Notes: generated by a model from the sequence alone, not told the origin. A stretch of DNA of 60,058 nucleotides from a virus (IMGVR_UViG_3300027671_000001:1-60058), one strand, 5' to 3'; positions 19,230-41,868 are shown, numbered from the stretch's first letter. Numbers and translations are program-made.

Positions 19230-19424
19230 ATGGAATGGAATATCAAACTCGACGATAAGCAGCTCGAGACCGTCCTGGCCGGGCTTGGTGAACTCCCGGC
19301 CAAGGCAAGCTTCCACCTCCTCATCGCCCTCGATCAGCAGATCGCAGCCCAGCGTCAGGCAGCGAGCCTCGGCTCCGTCACTCAATTCCCGTCTTCTGCT
19401 GTACAAGAGGCTTCCAAGTCTTAG
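19230..19424 (+). CDS. Small protein closing the late operon
   Basis: 64 residues with AAGGA before ATG 19230. It begins MEWNIKLDDKQLETVLAGLG and is probably two amphipathic helices. It overlaps the 3' end of the converging gene by 47 bases, so the two transcription units meet tail to tail with no intergenic terminator. Small proteins of this form are common in phages; function unknown. Confidence 0.6.
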   Translation: MEWNIKLDDKQLETVLAGLGELPAKASFHLLIALDQQIAAQRQAASLGSVTQFPSSAVQEASKS

Positions 19425-20694
19425 TCCCGGCCATGCGCTCGATTAGCTTCGAGCGCTCCGCCGCCTCGATAATCCATTTGATTTTCTCCACCGTACACTT
19501 CCCAGACAGGAAGCCATAGATTTCCGACTCGTCGATGGCTGTCTTGGTCTTGGAATAACGCGCCCAACAGCCAAGATGCAGGTCTTGCAAGAGTTCCTTG
19601 TCGGACTTCTGATACATTTCCCGGAAGATGTCGGGCATTTTGATTTCGGCTGCGAGTAGCCAATCTCGTGCCCGGTCGAAGTCTGCCAGCGTAATCCGCA
19701 TGTCAGTGCTGCGCGAAGCAGAAGCCACCATGCAAAGTTTCATGCAGTGAACCCAGCGGCGGGGGATGTAGTGGGTTAGCTTGGAGTGGATGGGGATCGG
19801 GATGCAGTCGGAGTGTAGCCACGTTTCTGCCGACTCCTTTGCATCGTGATCCCAGGTGAACTCCCCATGCAGGGCCTGCAGCTTGGCCAGTTGCTCGACG
19901 AGCTTGCAGAGATGCAGCTCGGTTTTCTTCCTCCCGGTGTTCTCGCCGGAGACGGTTTTGAGCTTGGGTTTGATCTTTACCCGCTCCGATGCATGGATCA
20001 TGATCAGGCGAGAGGTTGTCCCCATGCTCCAGGCCTCCTCCGGCAGGGTCGTAGCGAGGAAGCCCGGTTGGACCCCGGCGAGGATGGTAAGCTGAGGATG
20101 CACGATGACTAGCTCCTTCCCCTCATTGACTGTGCGGCGGCGTTCCGAGTAGTGGGGCGGGTTGTCATAGATAAAGTTCAACACAGAAAGGAACTCCAGG
20201 TCATGCTTGGAAATGAGCACCCCGAACTCCGGCGCGGCGACGAGAAGGGAGTGGTACTCAATTAGTGTCGGCGGGTCACCATGCATAAGGCTGGTGGAAG
20301 CATCCGCCAAGGCGTCCACGAGGGACGCCTTCGTCGGGGAGTGTGGCGCGGTTTTGAACTTCCGCGCATCCATCCAGATGTTAGAGATGGTCTGAATGAC
20401 GTTCTTGCCTATCCCTGGGGTTGCCACCAGCAAGACATAGAGATTGGGATAGATCGGCATCTCGGCAGAGTCCAACCAAACCCGGCGTTCCAACGCCCCG
20501 GCAACGGCACTAATCGCTGCCCAGAGGCGGAATATCTCCGGCGAGGGAAAGTTCTTAGTACACTCCAGGAATCCCTCTATCCAGTCTACTGTTTCGTTGG
20601 TGGCGGCTCCTTGTCTTCTTCGTAGGGGATCTCCACTGAGGCCTGTATCCCCATCCCCTTCGTCAATTCTCCCAAGATTTTGGACATGTGCCAT
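19378..20694 (-). CDS. DUF3987-like primase/helicase ATPase
   Basis: 438 residues if ATG 20694 is used, but the first 30 or so residues lie over the end of the upstream gene and look non-native. Convincing sequence begins near ETVDWIEGFLECTKNFPSPE. The ATP-binding loop is ATPGIGKN, a Walker A in which the usual final Ser/Thr is Asn. Later blocks (APEFGVLISKHDLEFLSVLN; LAGVQPGFLATTLPEEAWSM; TTSRLIMIHA) fit DUF3987-type replicative primase-helicase proteins. It follows the polymerase in the leftward replication block. Start unresolved: a -1 shift from the upstream frame or an unusual start is possible. Confidence 0.72.
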   Translation of the reverse strand: MAHVQNLGRIDEGDGDTGLSGDPLRRRQGAATNETVDWIEGFLECTKNFPSPEIFRLWAAISAVAGALERRVWLDSAEMPIYPNLYVLLVATPGIGKNVIQTISNIWMDARKFKTAPHSPTKASLVDALADASTSLMHGDPPTLIEYHSLLVAAPEFGVLISKHDLEFLSVLNFIYDNPPHYSERRRTVNEGKELVIVHPQLTILAGVQPGFLATTLPEEAWSMGTTSRLIMIHASERVKIKPKLKTVSGENTGRKKTELHLCKLVEQLAKLQALHGEFTWDHDAKESAETWLHSDCIPIPIHSKLTHYIPRRWVHCMKLCMVASASRSTDMRITLADFDRARDWLLAAEIKMPDIFREMYQKSDKELLQDLHLGCWARYSKTKTAIDESEIYGFLSGKCTVEKIKWIIEAAERSKLIERMAGTKTWKPLVQQKTGIE

Positions 20695-20822
20695 TGTTGA
20701 TACACCAGCAGGGTTAGTTGTTCTGCGCTATTAGCTGGAGCATTCTCAGCCTCTTGGATTAGCTCTCTTGGGCTGTTTGCACGGTAATGTGCTAGAAGGC
20801 GTTTTGTGAGGTTAAAGGACAC
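20586..20822 (-). CDS. Small protein downstream of polymerase
   Basis: 78 residues from GTG 20822, preceded by AGGAGG nine bases upstream and overlapping the polymerase stop. It is helical (NLTKRLLAHYRANSPRELIQ) with an acidic/proline tail ending EEDKEPPPTKQ. Overlaps the beginning of the primase/helicase frame by 109 bases. Function unknown; probably part of the replication block. Confidence 0.6.
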   Translation of the reverse strand: MSFNLTKRLLAHYRANSPRELIQEAENAPANSAEQLTLLVYQQWHMSKILGELTKGMGIQASVEIPYEEDKEPPPTKQ

Positions 20823-22347
20823 GGTGCAGGCCCTCCTGACGGGTGCGCGAGTCAACCCCCTTGTATTTCATGAGTCCGTTTGGGTTCATACGAGCATCAT
20901 AGGACCCCCAATTCCAGCCGATCTTGCAGTCCCCCGGAACAGTGTAGACGCGGCCCCCGGCGCGAAGCGGCGTCACGATTAACTTCAGGGCCTCCTGGAT
21001 GACCGCCTCATCCCCTTCGTCGTACTGGAAGGTTACCGAGTCGTAGCCCTGGTTCAGCAACTCCACGCGGGGGTAGAGTTGGTCCCAGATGCGATACAGG
21101 CAGAGGCTGGTCCGGTCTGCCGTCATGGACTGCGGGGTTCCAGCGACAGCTTCCCGGAGAGTTGTGTCATCATTGGGCCTTCCAAAAAAGATACGCTTAC
21201 GTCCAAAGGGAGTGACGAGGCATTGTTTGGTTTGGAGTTCCTGCCCAACCCAGCGGTGGTATCTCTGGATGCATGGAAAGACGCCAAAATATCGCTCTTG
21301 AAACAATACCATAAACTTCTCAGGAAGCTTGAGATGCTTCGCCATGGTGTAAGGCGCCCCCACATAGTTGCTTCCATGTCCTCCTCGCTTAGACATATCG
21401 CGATATGAGAAATGACGGTAGAACTTTCGTTCTGCAATAGGACGGTCTCGTACCAGGTCCCCCGTCCATGGTAGATCGTGAGGCCATATGAGTCTTGCAG
21501 TGTAAGTGTGCAGATCGCCACTTTCGATAACGTCGAGGTATGTCCAGTCACCGAGGATACTCCCACAGAGGAATCCTATGTCCCGCGCTTCCGCTTGCTC
21601 TTGGTCGATGACGCAGAGCTTTTTCCCTTTGTCTGCGATGAAGATTTTTCTGAGGCTGAGGAGGGTATCATCTTGTTCAGCGTAGTCTGCGTCCTTTTTA
21701 ATGTTGAAGATATTGCCTCCAGTTCCGAAAGCATTCTTACTACTCGACCATCGGCCTGTCTCAGTTCCTGCAATGTTGAGAGAAGTTCTAATTCGTCCAT
21801 CGGGGTCTATCTCCGTGGTGAGGGTCTCGAGCTGCTTGGCGATGTCCCGGATTTTGAGGATGCACAGCACAATTGGCCCGGCATAGAAGTAGGCCCCGAT
21901 CTTCTCCAAGGCCTCTCGATCCATGGAGAGTTTCCTCTCGCCACGTTTGGAGGTCCACTGCTCGGGCAGCCTCATCGCCCCATAGAAGAAGGCGAGGAGT
22001 TGCTTGGGGGAGCGTGGGTTGAGAGGCTTCCCCCAGACCTCCACCGCGTAGCGATCTAGGATGGACTGCACCCGGTCGATCTGCTTCTTCAGCAAATCTA
22101 TTCCCGCTCGCCTTTCGTACTCATCTATCCGGAATCCCCGGAGCATCATCTCCATTGCAGGGCCTTGCATGGCCCGTTCGAAGTCGTAAACCGTGTGGGA
22201 GAACCGGTTGTGACCGGGAGCGGTGTACTCCCGCTGCACCTCATGCATGACCTCAAGGGTCACCATGGTGTCGAGCCCGCAGTAGATTTGCAGGTTCTCC
22301 GGCAGGGCTACCCCCGGCTCTAGGTCCTGTGTGTTAATTACAGGCAT
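20812..22347 (-). CDS. Family A DNA polymerase, C-terminal part of a split enzyme
   Basis: 511 residues. It starts inside the 3'-5' exonuclease fold: Exo III motif YCGLD at residues 22-26, with no Exo I or II before it; those are in the gene at 23091-24194. Polymerase motif A is VIDQEQAEARDIGFL. Motif B is RDMSKRGGHGSNYVG, with His where E. coli Pol I has Phe762. Motif C is VTFQYDEGDEA, with YDE for the usual HDE. All palm carboxylates appear present. ATG 22347 overlaps the previous gene by 10 bases, so translation is coupled. It is the replicative polymerase of the phage, probably acting as a complex with the upstream exonuclease polypeptide. Confidence 0.9.
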   Translation of the reverse strand: MPVINTQDLEPGVALPENLQIYCGLDTMVTLEVMHEVQREYTAPGHNRFSHTVYDFERAMQGPAMEMMLRGFRIDEYERRAGIDLLKKQIDRVQSILDRYAVEVWGKPLNPRSPKQLLAFFYGAMRLPEQWTSKRGERKLSMDREALEKIGAYFYAGPIVLCILKIRDIAKQLETLTTEIDPDGRIRTSLNIAGTETGRWSSSKNAFGTGGNIFNIKKDADYAEQDDTLLSLRKIFIADKGKKLCVIDQEQAEARDIGFLCGSILGDWTYLDVIESGDLHTYTARLIWPHDLPWTGDLVRDRPIAERKFYRHFSYRDMSKRGGHGSNYVGAPYTMAKHLKLPEKFMVLFQERYFGVFPCIQRYHRWVGQELQTKQCLVTPFGRKRIFFGRPNDDTTLREAVAGTPQSMTADRTSLCLYRIWDQLYPRVELLNQGYDSVTFQYDEGDEAVIQEALKLIVTPLRAGGRVYTVPGDCKIGWNWGSYDARMNPNGLMKYKGVDSRTRQEGLHRVL

Positions 22348-22688
22348 CGGGTCTCCGTTGGCAGGCCGCGTTGCAGCGCGTGGGCTATGTCCGACTCCAT
22401 GCCCGGACTGCTGCCCCGGTCAGCATATACCACCACCAGATCAACTTGATCAAACCAGGCATAGGCCGCCTGCATACCGATGCGGCGTAAAGCCCGATCG
22501 CTATCCCGGAGCACCTGTGGATAGAGCAGATGCGACACAAAGGGGGCCTCGCCACGCCGGAAACAGTCATCCATGGCTTTCCGCGCATAGCAGATGTTCC
22601 TCCATTTGTCCCAGAGTCTCCATGGCCAGGGGCCTCTACCGGCGAACGGCGAGACCACGACTACCCGAGGTATTCCATGCTCCCTCAT
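22338..22688 (-). CDS. DUF4406 / nucleoside 2-deoxyribosyltransferase-like protein
   Basis: 116 residues. N terminus VVVVSPFAG, then NICYARKAMDDCFRRGEAPF, SHLLYPQVL and DLVVVYADRGSSPGMESDIA follow the pattern of the deoxyribosyltransferase-like fold (DUF4406/DUF1937 group): SPF-G, YA--A, P-SHL, SxGM--EI. Relatives cleave or transfer the base of nucleosides or bind nucleotides. The gene sits between the two halves of the DNA polymerase and shares TGATG with the gene before it. Predicted role: nucleotide-pool salvage or modified-nucleotide control. Confidence 0.75.
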   Translation of the reverse strand: MREHGIPRVVVVSPFAGRGPWPWRLWDKWRNICYARKAMDDCFRRGEAPFVSHLLYPQVLRDSDRALRRIGMQAAYAWFDQVDLVVVYADRGSSPGMESDIAHALQRGLPTETRCL

Positions 22689-23071
22689 CAGAACTTCTTC
22701 CCCCCTTCCTTCAGCCTACTCTCGACCTTGTGATCTGCGCGCTGGTCATTGTAGCACAGCTTTTCCACCACCGCGCCGGCGAGGTCATAGCCGTACTCCG
22801 CGGCGTAGTCGAAGATGCGGATTAGGGTATCGGCAAGTTCCACCTCGGGGCTGCGCCGGTGAGGCAGATGCTCATCCATGAGGGACTTCCGTTCCCCCTC
22901 TAGGGCCTCACTCAGCTCTGCGTGCATGAGGGCGATCATCTCCCCCTTGTTGCGGCGGATGCGTTGCCCAGTTCGCGCGTCGCTCCACCAGCCATTCTTG
23001 ACTGCCCGCTCATGGCAGATCTTCGTCGCGATTGCTAGACCCTGCTTCATCATGTCGATTGCTTCTGGCAT
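22688..23071 (-). CDS. MazG-like nucleoside triphosphate pyrophosphohydrolase
   Basis: 127 residues from ATG 23071, which has AAGGGG eight bases upstream; a longer start at 23098 overlaps the previous stop but has no ribosome site. The core EMIALMHAELSEALEGERKS, then EVELADTLIRIFDYAAEYGY, has the ExxExxE...ExxD arrangement of all-alpha NTP-PPases (MazG/dUTPase superfamily). Those remove non-canonical or excess NTPs. It is the first of two genes inserted between the exonuclease and polymerase halves. Confidence 0.8.
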   Translation of the reverse strand: MPEAIDMMKQGLAIATKICHERAVKNGWWSDARTGQRIRRNKGEMIALMHAELSEALEGERKSLMDEHLPHRRSPEVELADTLIRIFDYAAEYGYDLAGAVVEKLCYNDQRADHKVESRLKEGGKKF

Positions 23072-23090
23072 AGCGTTTCCCCTTAAGGCT

Positions 23091-24194
23091 TCACTCATCG
23101 CGCTTGTTCACGTCTGACTGCCCGCGCATTAACTTCCAGGCTGGCTCTTGCGTGTAGATGCTCCCGAGAAAACCGAGGCCTTTCTGTAGCTCAGGGAACA
23201 GGCTGTGATGCATGAGCATCGTGTCCTCGCCGCAGTTGCGAGGCACAATCCCCATGCGGAGGATATACTGCAAGTCATACATGCCGTTCTGAAACAACTT
23301 CGGCGCTGGCAGCTGCATGATCTCCTTTACCAGAGCCCAAGCAATGCGTTCATCGTCCAGGCTATCCCAATAATTTCCCCCGTTAGCTCGCAAGTTAACA
23401 AAAGGAACCACCATGGAGAAGTCGGTGCGAGCCGCGAAGCCAATGCATTTGATTTGCCCCGCTCCTGTCTCGATATCAACAGATATATAATTAGCAAGTC
23501 GGCCCTCCGTTTCGATCCACCAGCGGATTTCATCTAGGGTCGGATTGACTAGAACCTGCCTATGTGGGCGGCGGATTTCCGGGAAGGTTGATTCCCGGAG
23601 GGCCTTCAGCAGGTCCGCTTTGACGATCGGACGAAGAGCCCAATTTCGTAGTACCGCTGCTGGATGGAAGGTGGGTAGCACTTTGGTGGCAGCGTGGCCC
23701 AGCATGGTGGTACCGCGGATTTGCGAGATTTTAGTTGTGCGTACCACTGCCCAGCAGGCGGTGTTCCCCAGGGCAATAATGAGATTTGGCTTGACTTCGT
23801 TGATCTCCGCATAAAGGCGCTCCACTTCCGGGAGGTATTGCGGGTCGAGGTACTTGCCTTGTTTGAGCGGTGGCATGGGATAGGCTGGGCCGGCGGTGGC
23901 CTTGTTTACGCAGAGGAGGTCCAGGTTGTTTTTCTCAGGGCGCAGAGCGAGGACATTCGTGAAGATGAATGGACTGCCGTCCCAGTAATTACACATGTCC
24001 TTAACTGATAAGTATCGCTGGGGGAGCGGGTTCTTGATAAGGCCAACCTCGTTGGCGATCCGTGCCAACTCCCGCCCCGACTGCCCAACAAAGGGCTTCC
24101 CGATCTCTTCTTCATCCTTACCCCAGGCCTCTCCGATGAACATGACCTTTGCGGACTTGGTCCCGGAGGTATTACGGAATGGGCTAAGCGCCAT
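23091..24194 (-). CDS. Uracil-DNA glycosylase domain fused to N-terminal exonuclease half of DNA polymerase
   Basis: 367 residues from ATG 24194 (GAGGAAG ribosome site), overlapping the previous stop; an upstream ATG at 24224 is less likely. Residues 1-200 form a family 4/5-type uracil-DNA glycosylase: VMFIGEAWGKDEEEIGKPFV, GQSGREL and the distal LPTFHPAAVL. From about 245 comes a DnaQ-like exonuclease with Exo I (VDIETGAG) and Exo II (LFQNGMYDLQYI). The frame ends just before Exo III, which is in the polymerase gene. The layout resembles SPO1-type polymerases with a UDG domain, cut in two. It may inspect for uracil or recruit the polymerase. Confidence 0.88.
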   Translation of the reverse strand: MALSPFRNTSGTKSAKVMFIGEAWGKDEEEIGKPFVGQSGRELARIANEVGLIKNPLPQRYLSVKDMCNYWDGSPFIFTNVLALRPEKNNLDLLCVNKATAGPAYPMPPLKQGKYLDPQYLPEVERLYAEINEVKPNLIIALGNTACWAVVRTTKISQIRGTTMLGHAATKVLPTFHPAAVLRNWALRPIVKADLLKALRESTFPEIRRPHRQVLVNPTLDEIRWWIETEGRLANYISVDIETGAGQIKCIGFAARTDFSMVVPFVNLRANGGNYWDSLDDERIAWALVKEIMQLPAPKLFQNGMYDLQYILRMGIVPRNCGEDTMLMHHSLFPELQKGLGFLGSIYTQEPAWKLMRGQSDVNKRDE

Positions 24195-39712: not shown

Positions 39713-39897
39713 CTTGCTCTCCTTGGGTGCCACTCAACTTCGATGAATTGGTAATAGACCCGGCTCACGACCGGCACTGGCGAAGGCGGCTGGGCGTTCG
39801 CCTTATTACAGAAATCAAATGCGTCGTCCCTGTGCGCGTAGGCAGCCATTGGTCTGGCATCCTCCATCACCACGAAGACCGTCCGCTTAGCGGCCAT
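39709..39897 (-). CDS. Small protein (62 aa)
   Basis: 62 residues from ATG 39897: MAAKRTVFVVMEDARPMAAY, then HRDDAFDFCNKANAQ and RVYYQFIEVEWH. Alpha/beta pattern of small phage proteins that follow with YxFxEVEWH; role unknown. ATGA junction downstream. Confidence 0.66.
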   Translation of the reverse strand: MAAKRTVFVVMEDARPMAAYAHRDDAFDFCNKANAQPPSPVPVVSRVYYQFIEVEWHPRRAR

Positions 39898-40369
39898 CAG
39901 GCATGTACTCCTTGAAAACAAGGAGCAGGGTGCAATAGGTATACTCGTAGATGCCGCGATTGTGCGACTCGCGATTGCCCGCGACGTTGAGGCACCCCGG
40001 CTTGGTGACCCGGAGCCACTCGATAATCGTCCGGGAGGCCGTGTGGATGCTTTGCTTGCTGGGATAGGGCACAACCAGCCAGGCCTTCTTCTCCCGCGTG
40101 ACGAGGCCGGAAGTGAGCTTGCCTCCTGGGGAGTTCGTGCGGCCAAACCAGATGGTCGCCTGGGAGGCTTCGATATTGGAGCGGGTGCGGCCAGGATAGT
40201 CCTCGCTCGTTAGCTCGAAAATGCCGTATTTGCGCAGGTAGTGCGGCTTAACCCCGTCCTCCGTGCGGAAGCCCTTGGGCATAAAGCCGCCGGTCTGTAG
40301 GTGGCAGGCTAGCGCCGCGTCTAGGCCGGCGATGTCTGCGCCTGATTGGCCCCCCGATATGACTCGCAT
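39887..40369 (-). CDS. cpYpsA/SLOG-like protein (putative molybdenum-carrier family)
   Basis: 160 residues from ATG 40369. It begins MRVISGGQSGADIAGLDAAL, then GGFMPKGFRTEDGVK and YPGRTRSNIEASQATIWFGR, the full pattern of the circularly permuted YpsA group within the SLOG superfamily, often labelled putative molybdenum cofactor carrier. SLOG domains bind nucleotide-type ligands and occur in NAD- and ADP-ribose-linked conflict systems. The C-terminal 30 residues are variable. In a phage it may bind a nucleotide signal or nucleotide sugar. Family call good, ligand unknown. Confidence 0.8.
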   Translation of the reverse strand: MRVISGGQSGADIAGLDAALACHLQTGGFMPKGFRTEDGVKPHYLRKYGIFELTSEDYPGRTRSNIEASQATIWFGRTNSPGGKLTSGLVTREKKAWLVVPYPSKQSIHTASRTIIEWLRVTKPGCLNVAGNRESHNRGIYEYTYCTLLLVFKEYMPDGR

Positions 40370-40370
40370 C

Positions 40371-40589
40371 TTAGTGGACCTTTCCCTCCTGGAGTACCCG
40401 CACAATGAGGTCATCGTCGGTTTCTCCAGGGAAACGCTTCTGCAACAGCCTTTCATAGGTGTCTTCCTCCAGAGGAATCTCCACCCAGCCAGCCTCCTGA
40501 GATGGCCGCGCATTGTTCTGAAATGGCCTTAGAGCCTTCCGCGCGAGGCCGCTTGCGGTTTCAACCCTGATCTTTACCCAGACGGTCAT
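40371..40589 (-). CDS. Small protein (72 aa)
   Basis: 72 residues, MTVWVKIRVETASGLARKAL then SQEAGWVEIPLEEDTYERLL, an alpha/beta pattern of unknown family. One base separates its stop from the next start. Unknown. Confidence 0.65.
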   Translation of the reverse strand: MTVWVKIRVETASGLARKALRPFQNNARPSQEAGWVEIPLEEDTYERLLQKRFPGETDDDLIVRVLQEGKVH

Positions 40590-40591
40590 GG

Positions 40592-40762
40592 CTATGCAGT
40601 CTCCTCCTTTAGGACTTGCCCCATATGCTTTCGCAGGATGTCGAGCAGTTCATGTCCATCGGGGTAGTATTGCTCGGCGATGAGATACATCTCCTTGACA
40701 CCTTGGAGACGGCCGTTGGAGGTGGCTAGCTTTGTGATCTTCGTTAGGTCGTCGTCTTCCAT
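40592..40762 (-). CDS. Small acidic helical protein (56 aa)
   Basis: 56 residues from ATG 40762, overlapping the HIRAN gene stop (TGATG). Sequence MEDDDLTKITKLATSNGRLQ then EQYYPDGHELLDILRKHMGQ. Unknown. Confidence 0.66.
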   Translation of the reverse strand: MEDDDLTKITKLATSNGRLQGVKEMYLIAEQYYPDGHELLDILRKHMGQVLKEETA

Positions 40763-41868
40763 CACGGCTCTCCCCAGGTTACTTCCGCCAGCGGCAACCC
40801 CGCACTGTCGAAGACCAGCTTGGCCTTGTAGGGCTCCCCTTTGGCGAGTCGCGGCGAGATCACCGTCGCCAGCGCGCACCCCTCGCGGCCTTTGGGTGGC
40901 TTGGCTGCGATGTAGCCAAGGTGCCAGAATGGCTCGGCGAGGATTTCTTCGAGCGAGTGCCCGAAGCCGCTGGCCTGGAGGTCGAGGTCCTCATGTTGCG
41001 ACTTGGGGATAGCCGCGCTGGCCACGAGCACCTTAACCGCGTTCACATCGTACTGGTTCTCCGGTTCCCGCTCGAGCCTTAGCTCTGCCCCGGTGGGAAG
41101 CACCGCCATGATAGCCTTGGCTGGTGGTCGAAAGTGCATACCGACAATGGCGCACTGGTCTGTCATTTGTGGGGGCTCCTCTGTTAGATCATAGATGTGG
41201 TGTAGGTGTGCCTTGGTTTTCGGCCATTGGCCGGTCGGGCCGACCACATACTCGATGGAATGGACTCGGCCATACTCAGCGCGGTAGCCATGCTCATGCT
41301 CGTCCACAATGCCCCATAGGGCCACCTGCCCGACGGCGACAGCGGTAAAGTCGTGGCGGCTACTGTCAATCATCGTATGCTGGAGCCAGCCTATGCCGTA
41401 GTTGTAGGCCTGCTGCTGGGACTTCCAGGCATGGACTCCGCCCAGTATGGAGGCCCCATACCGCCTGTCCACCTCCCCGGTCATGGGCTCCTTGGGGTGC
41501 CAGCCTATCTGCACCGCCATGCTGAATAGCAGGCCGTCAGCGCGGACACGCCAGGAGCGCCATGCGAGGACTTCCCCGACCTTTATGCCGGAACTTTGTC
41601 CGGTAAGGGGATGGGCTGGGATGGAGAAGGGGAAGGGGAGCGCTCTGGGCGCGGGAGGGCTGGGTAAGATGGCTCGTAACCAGGAGTTGGGGAACGCAGA
41701 GGTACGACAGTCCACCTTTTCAAAGGCTTTCCAATTTCCGCCATAGGTTTGCTCCACTGTTACACAGGCTGGACAAAAAGCGATAAACATATCTAGGGGT
41801 ACGTCATGCTGCACCATGGCATCGCAGCCGCATCTCTTGCAGACAAGCCGGTTCAGACGCTGCTTCAC
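40762..41868 (-). CDS. HIRAN-domain protein with N-terminal zinc ribbon
   Basis: 368 residues. Residues 10-40 hold CKRCGCD...CPACVTVE, a probable zinc ribbon. The middle (EVLAWRSWRVR; YGASILGGVHAWKSQQQAYN; GYRAEYGRVHSIEYVVGPTG) follows a beta-rich pattern seen in phage proteins of unknown function. Residues 245-345 are HIRAN-like: VGMHFRPPAKAIMAVLPTGA, LRLEREPENQYDVNAVKVL and FWHLGYIAAK. HIRAN modules bind DNA ends at stalled forks in HLTF/Rad5. May sense or protect DNA ends during replication. Confidence 0.75.
   Translation of the reverse strand: MKQRLNRLVCKRCGCDAMVQHDVPLDMFIAFCPACVTVEQTYGGNWKAFEKVDCRTSAFPNSWLRAILPSPPAPRALPFPFSIPAHPLTGQSSGIKVGEVLAWRSWRVRADGLLFSMAVQIGWHPKEPMTGEVDRRYGASILGGVHAWKSQQQAYNYGIGWLQHTMIDSSRHDFTAVAVGQVALWGIVDEHEHGYRAEYGRVHSIEYVVGPTGQWPKTKAHLHHIYDLTEEPPQMTDQCAIVGMHFRPPAKAIMAVLPTGAELRLEREPENQYDVNAVKVLVASAAIPKSQHEDLDLQASGFGHSLEEILAEPFWHLGYIAAKPPKGREGCALATVISPRLAKGEPYKAKLVFDSAGLPLAEVTWGEP

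Follow-up and report, generated by a model that had tools for sequence, protein, structure and literature searches.

The window analyzed here, the whole 60,058-nucleotide virus record IMGVR_UViG_3300027671_000001:1-60058, in whose positions all window coordinates are given, carries on its minus strand four consecutive genes that encode a family A DNA polymerase as two separate polypeptides with two small genes between them. In gene order these are chain N, which joins a uracil-DNA glycosylase (UDG) to the first part of an exonuclease; a MazG-like nucleoside triphosphate (NTP) pyrophosphatase; a DUF7768 gene resembling nucleoside 2-deoxyribosyltransferases; and chain C, which holds the remainder of the exonuclease and the polymerase proper (Table 1). 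Neighboring open reading frames (ORFs) overlap by 8, 1, and 10 bases when the MazG-like gene is read from its upstream start. The two polymerase ORFs lie in the order of the ancestral enzyme and carry complementary domains, as in a split replicase. A preliminary description of the locus had proposed that one exonuclease active site is shared between two proteins derived from a single-chain enzyme, with short overlaps joining the four genes; rereading the window sequence reproduced its coordinates and motifs for both chains, as well as the overlaps.

Distribution of the split

A first search found four relatives at 68 to 35% identity, and both polymerase genes also occur in Kuura, an isolated Caulobacter phage; in the first six members, the break falls at an identical alignment column. 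Profile scans yielded 116 non-redundant loci with both chains (the first set), each of them cut in the loop leading into the Exo III helix, and two more scans aimed at distant members added 64 further split loci (the second set), for a total of 180 distinct loci. GTDB genomes gave a single match, on a 7.4-kb contig in a metagenome-assembled genome of Terriglobia (L164). Because the same cut recurs in 180 loci, including that of an isolated phage, chance and an assembly error are excluded, and with them the sequencing error that the preliminary description had named as a way to be wrong; these loci are also the other phages with the same cut for which it had hoped. The Kuura genome is cultured and restriction checked and catalytic residues are all kept, and we put the chance of an assembly or sequencing artifact, or of a decaying polymerase, at practically nil, having come across nothing in favor of either.

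Eighty loci of one-chain relatives were fetched, from which 57 non-redundant single ORFs entered the tree. All 95 complete split members (95/95) are monophyletic with a support of 0.987, and the 57 one-chain sequences form their sister group.

Cuts at other points were also observed. In ctLwi270 (L166, 1727-4364), an independent split falls directly after Exo III, and an NrdR-like zinc ribbon is readable in its 151-base gap. Vibrio phage VS-ABTNL-3 (L167, 2956-6090) is cut ahead of motif A, with a 184-amino-acid ORF between the parts, and two further loci are cut within the polymerase (L241) and between UDG and exonuclease (L247); these three splits, too, are independent. Together with the MEP401-type splits considered below, these cases show that fission recurs in related polymerases. 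Within the searches made, no cut but the one ahead of Exo III was seen to be fixed throughout a large clade.

Two chains as probable halves of one enzyme

The two chains tile the PHROG DNA polymerase profile phrog_17, chain N ending at profile position 788 and chain C beginning at 805; against the Klenow fragment, the N profile aligns to chain positions 14 to 123 and the C profile to 169 to 586. The DEDDy set of proofreading residues (Exo I DxE, Exo II D, Exo III YxxxD) is complete only when chains N and C are combined, and it is invariant on both sides of the break: 114/114 relatives having residues at those positions carry the Exo I D and E, 116/116 relatives carry the Exo II D, and 116/116 C chains carry the Exo III Y and D, with the YxxxD motif in all 64 heads of the second set. 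One-chain relatives carry identical invariant exonuclease residues. This invariance and tiling support the proposal of one exonuclease site spread over two chains from a single-chain ancestor, and the alignment shows that chain C retains its exonuclease part, the loss of which would have told against that proposal.

AlphaFold2 was run on chains N and C, each alone, with 94-sequence alignments. The chain N model (predicted local distance difference test [pLDDT] score, 94; predicted template modeling [pTM] score, 0.89) comprises the UDG domain and the exonuclease sheet without its last helix, and its Foldseek matches are, besides the top-ranking family-4 UDGs, the family A polymerase of phiLo (9qhs), Klenow, and G20c Pol I. 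The UDG assignment draws on the fold, a GE-type motif 1 and an HPxxxxR motif, with E22 in 102/107 and H177 in 108/112 relatives. Among curated NCBIfam models, TIGR00758, NF040953, and TIGR03914 matched far below their family-4/UdgX cutoffs, and we therefore call the domain family-4-like only. The chain C model (pLDDT, 92; pTM, 0.86) opens with a 27-residue helix bearing Exo III and matches Taq and Bst Pol I in Foldseek. Motifs A, B, and C with their catalytic aspartates, the Pfam DNA_pol_A match, and the Taq/Bst/Klenow fold place it in family A (Pol I type), and in motif B the R and K are conserved in 111/111 and 110/110 relatives. The residue at Escherichia coli position 762 is His in 94/95 split members and 57/57 one-chain relatives, so that chain C lacks the F, Y, or L that viral PolA surveys retain there, a residue type that does not define the family (PMC9069017). 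Surveys keeping F, L, or Y only would drop this lineage of split and one-chain enzymes. Some chain C sequences carry intein-like insertions at two catalytic sites, called by eye from a Cys start and HN/GN ends, in motif B (L079, L365) or ahead of SGDLHT (L104, L118).

Since each half folds confidently alone, the chains might act separately, N as a free UDG/exonuclease repair protein and C as an exonuclease-less polymerase with a vestigial Exo III helix; many family A polymerases do lack proofreading. We think this very unlikely, because the Exo III residues have no known role in polymerization and are nevertheless invariant, because the Exo I and II motifs would serve no purpose in the absence of Exo III, and because chain N lacks the final exonuclease helix.

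The junction itself has changed with the split. From the N-tail tryptophan to the Exo III tyrosine, the median distance is 18 residues in one-chain relatives and 37 in split members, of which about 16 belong to N and 22 to C, both stretches having recognizable conserved patterns; the linker ahead of Exo III is thus about 19 residues longer. Furthermore, the distances among N chains and among C chains correlate (Mantel r = 0.80; permuted maximum, 0.10).

The gap and its cargo

The gap between the halves ranges from -4 to 2793 bases. It is free of cargo at 9/116 loci of the first set and 22/64 of the second (31/180 overall), where most N and C gene pairs share 1 or 4 bases, as in coupled translation. 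Elsewhere it holds complete genes, which we cataloged with Pfam as 179 ORFs of at least 70 amino acids and compared with 150 ORFs sampled from the flanks. The most frequent gap families are DUF7768 (26 ORFs), DUF1937 (13), DUF4406 (10), nucleoside deoxyribosyltransferase (8, overlapping with the others), and HNH_3 (7); single or few ORFs match MazG, TSCPD, HAD, dCTP deaminase/dUTPase, NrdR-type zinc ribbon, YfbR, and ligase. One gap (L004), like that of ctLwi270, holds an NrdR-like zinc ribbon, and in another (L138, 1877-4184) three gap ORFs cluster together, apparently as a small tandem gene family.

Deoxyribosyltransferase-like families occur in 45/106 gaps of the first set and more weakly, in 5/36, in the second. 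None appears among the 25 of 32 families listed for the 150 flank ORFs, and for DUF7768 the difference between gap and flank ORFs (26/179 versus none listed in 150) has a Fisher p of 7e-8. Relatives of DUF7768 lie in 27 gaps and 2 flanks, the flanks holding ten times more bases, a count biased by profiles built from gap genes, the bias being lessened by the second sample. Three deoxyribosyltransferase-like families never share a gap, against about 4.6 shared gaps expected. Genes related to the MazG-like gene of the window were found in 7 gaps. The idea that this gene and DUF7768 form a conserved module was rejected, the cargo differing in the nearest relatives of the window. On the tree, gap labels change many times (13 changes for DUF7768 and 8 for HNH), and cargo has therefore been repeatedly gained and lost. 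In the flanks of split loci, 4/150 sampled ORFs match the Acb2/Tad1 hairpin family, a counter-defense sponge family.

The bias of the cargo toward deoxynucleotide enzymes suggests selection, and the cargo most likely benefits from its place in a replication operon. It may be that the split is retained foremost because the gap couples nucleotide-sanitizing enzymes to polymerase expression, a reading compatible with a two-subunit enzyme. The enrichment of DUF7768 argues for it, as does the mutual exclusion of the three families, as if one function were wanted; yet the split persists at the cargo-free loci, the cargo varies between relatives, and the second sample shows the tendency in few gaps, and on balance we hold it to be unlikely. 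The preliminary description had suggested a replisome linked to cleaning of the nucleotide pool. As a tendency of the gap, this stands; the gene pair seen in the window is one variant among many, and since 31/180 loci have no cargo, such genes are no constant component of the enzyme.

Phage polymerase genes often bear introns or inteins, and two intein-like sites lie within chain C of other members, so an intron, a split intein, or ribosomal bypassing could in principle restore a single polypeptide from the halves. Rfam, however, gave only tRNAs and no introns in the window and in 11 gap loci, of which ten have HNH hits; chain N has its own stop and chain C its own start, with complete genes or 1- or 4-base overlaps between them; and no intein sequence was found at the junction ends examined in first-set loci. 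We give rejoining hardly any credence.

A probable two-subunit polymerase from one fission

The pair is very probably a two-subunit family A replicative polymerase that derives from a single ancient gene fission and whose chains assemble noncovalently. Its ancestor would have been a one-chain UDG-exonuclease-polymerase cut in the surface loop that precedes the Exo III helix, and the fission would have been a single event at the base of a large phage clade, remaining unrepaired in all sampled members. Chain N, with the UDG and the exonuclease beta-sheet, and chain C, with the Exo III helix and the thumb, palm, and fingers, would form one Klenow-like enzyme across an interface that we infer from homology. 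The Exo III helix of chain C would complete in trans the DEDD proofreading site of chain N, a site that Klenow builds from one chain, and the short conserved extensions at the new ends of both chains may serve as docking segments. The intergenic point would have become a slot for insertions within the replication operon; HNH endonucleases would have passed through it, and small deoxynucleotide-metabolism genes would often have stayed.

No fused member was found in the scans that yielded the 116 and 64 split loci, which speaks for this account. Several points weigh against it. The absence of fused members is based on pattern-seeded scans and on the best 80 hits of each. Adjacency alone can produce the co-inheritance of N and C. 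The Exo III helix is modeled with lower confidence in the lone chain C (pLDDT, about 77 to 85), which would be expected with the partner missing yet is no proof of a partner. Finally, HNH genes, present in about a tenth of first-set gaps, are scattered on the tree, with their 8 changes no better than shuffled labels, and a homing-endonuclease origin is to that extent unsupported.

The break may nonetheless stem from a homing endonuclease or a similar insertion: HNH genes in gaps and intein-like insertions in polymerase motifs make such an origin plausible without demonstrating it. We dropped the homing endonuclease as a proven cause, the HNH genes being scattered as if newly arrived. A more speculative possibility, which we regard as distinctly improbable, is that assembly switches proofreading on and off, chain C polymerizing alone and chain N docking through the new conserved ends when needed, while one pool enzyme from the gap, deoxyribosyltransferase-like or other, helps to bar deoxyuridine monophosphate or damaged nucleotides from the genome.

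That a large and diverse clade keeps the proofreading site of its replicative polymerase divided between two proteins amounts to a natural experiment on how much a polymerase tolerates and on the way in which a broken gene comes to be permanent. Kuura offers a cultivable test case, and for the engineering of two-part polymerases the cut marks a naturally occurring place to divide the enzyme; the contents of the slot point to nucleotide functions that phages want beside their replicase. Automated annotation overlooks the split polymerase: in the Kuura pair, WCD44107.1 and WCD44104.1, chain C is labeled "DNA polymerase" and chain N "hypothetical protein."

Other features of the window

Besides the polymerase genes, the window codes for a portal protein, a large terminase, a Sak4-like annealing protein, a phage exonuclease, and a DUF3987 primase/helicase-like gene. 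A Pfam search gave no match for the MazG-like protein, which is assigned through PHROG (Table 1). Away from the replication genes, positions 39887-40513 encode a circularly permuted YpsA SLOG protein (Pfam E=7.5e-36), and positions 40762-41868 give a weak HIRAN-domain match.

Table 1. Features of the split polymerase locus, in window coordinates
Feature	Position	Strand	Evidence
Chain N, 367 amino acids; UDG and exonuclease core with Exo I and Exo II, stopping ahead of the Exo III helix	23091..24194	-	
UDG domain (family 4/UdgX-like), residues 11-196	23607..24164	-	Pfam UDG E=1.9e-18; family-4 UDGs top in Foldseek
Exo I VDIETG, residues 239-244 (D240, E242)	23463..23480	-	
Exo II FQNGMYDLQY (FQNGMYD, residues 301-307; D307)	23265..23294	-	
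New C-terminal tail of chain N, KRDE-type, disordered in model	23094..23117	-	pLDDT <50 at residues 360-367; tail conserved in relatives
Gap gene 1, MazG-like NTP pyrophosphatase; alternative start 23071	22688..23098	-	PHROG 5658 E=6e-56
Gap gene 2, DUF7768, nucleoside 2-deoxyribosyltransferase-like	22338..22688	-	Pfam E=1.8e-23; similar to PHROG 355
Chain C, 511 amino acids; new N-terminal head, Exo III helix, thumb, palm, and fingers of family A polymerase	20812..22347	-	Pfam DNA_pol_A E=2.8e-25
New head of chain C, M-x-I-I-x-T type, 21 residues, ahead of Exo III	22285..22347	-	T6 in 106/116
Exo III YCGLD, residues 22-26 (Y22, D26), within long helix of residues 16-42	22270..22284	-	Helix in model
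Polymerase motif A IDQEQAEAR (D248)	21583..21609	-	D in 112/112
Polymerase motif B RDMSKRGGHGSNY (R316, K320, H324 = E. coli position 762, Y328)	21364..21402	-	
Polymerase motif C NQGYDS (D436)	21037..21054	-	D in 106/106
DUF3987 primase/helicase-like gene, replication module, downstream of chain C	19378..20694	-	Pfam DUF3987; PHROG 14296 "DNA primase"

Comparison with known systems

The closest one-chain counterparts are found in the Microcystis phage Mel-JY34 and in ctMlz233, which share the UDG, Exo, Pol order and the catalytic residues of the split pair, and in phiLo, whose polymerase (PDB 9qhs) matches chain N over 383 alignment columns. In Mel-JY34, the polymerase gene is likewise followed by a DUF3987 gene. 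All three enzymes differ from the split pair in being one polypeptide, with a loop of about 18 residues where the split clade has 37 over two ends.

Split phage replicases are a known class. In the literature on UDG-PolA fusions and split family A polymerases, we found no published report of the pre-Exo III cut or of a cargo slot, and both are unreported as far as our searches reach. The MEP401-type OM43 phages, in most of the group, encode a family A polymerase as two ORFs with a small ORF between them, but there the break falls within the polymerase domain (Exo with N-terminal Pol, then C-terminal Pol) and does not pass through the exonuclease site (PMC10580990). Jumbo phages likewise make the catalytic Pol III alpha subunit as two proteins, of another polymerase family and from genes far apart (PMC7824862). 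The gp43A/gp43B pair of phages 25 and 44RR is also a two-gene phage replicative polymerase, sometimes with a homing endonuclease between the genes; it differs in belonging to family B, in being described from few phages, and in that no rotating cargo of nucleotide enzymes is described for it (PMC2988022). In the T4-related phage 25, the two halves co-purify and are active (PMC2988022), and gp43A/gp43B is thus the experimental precedent for an active split replicase.

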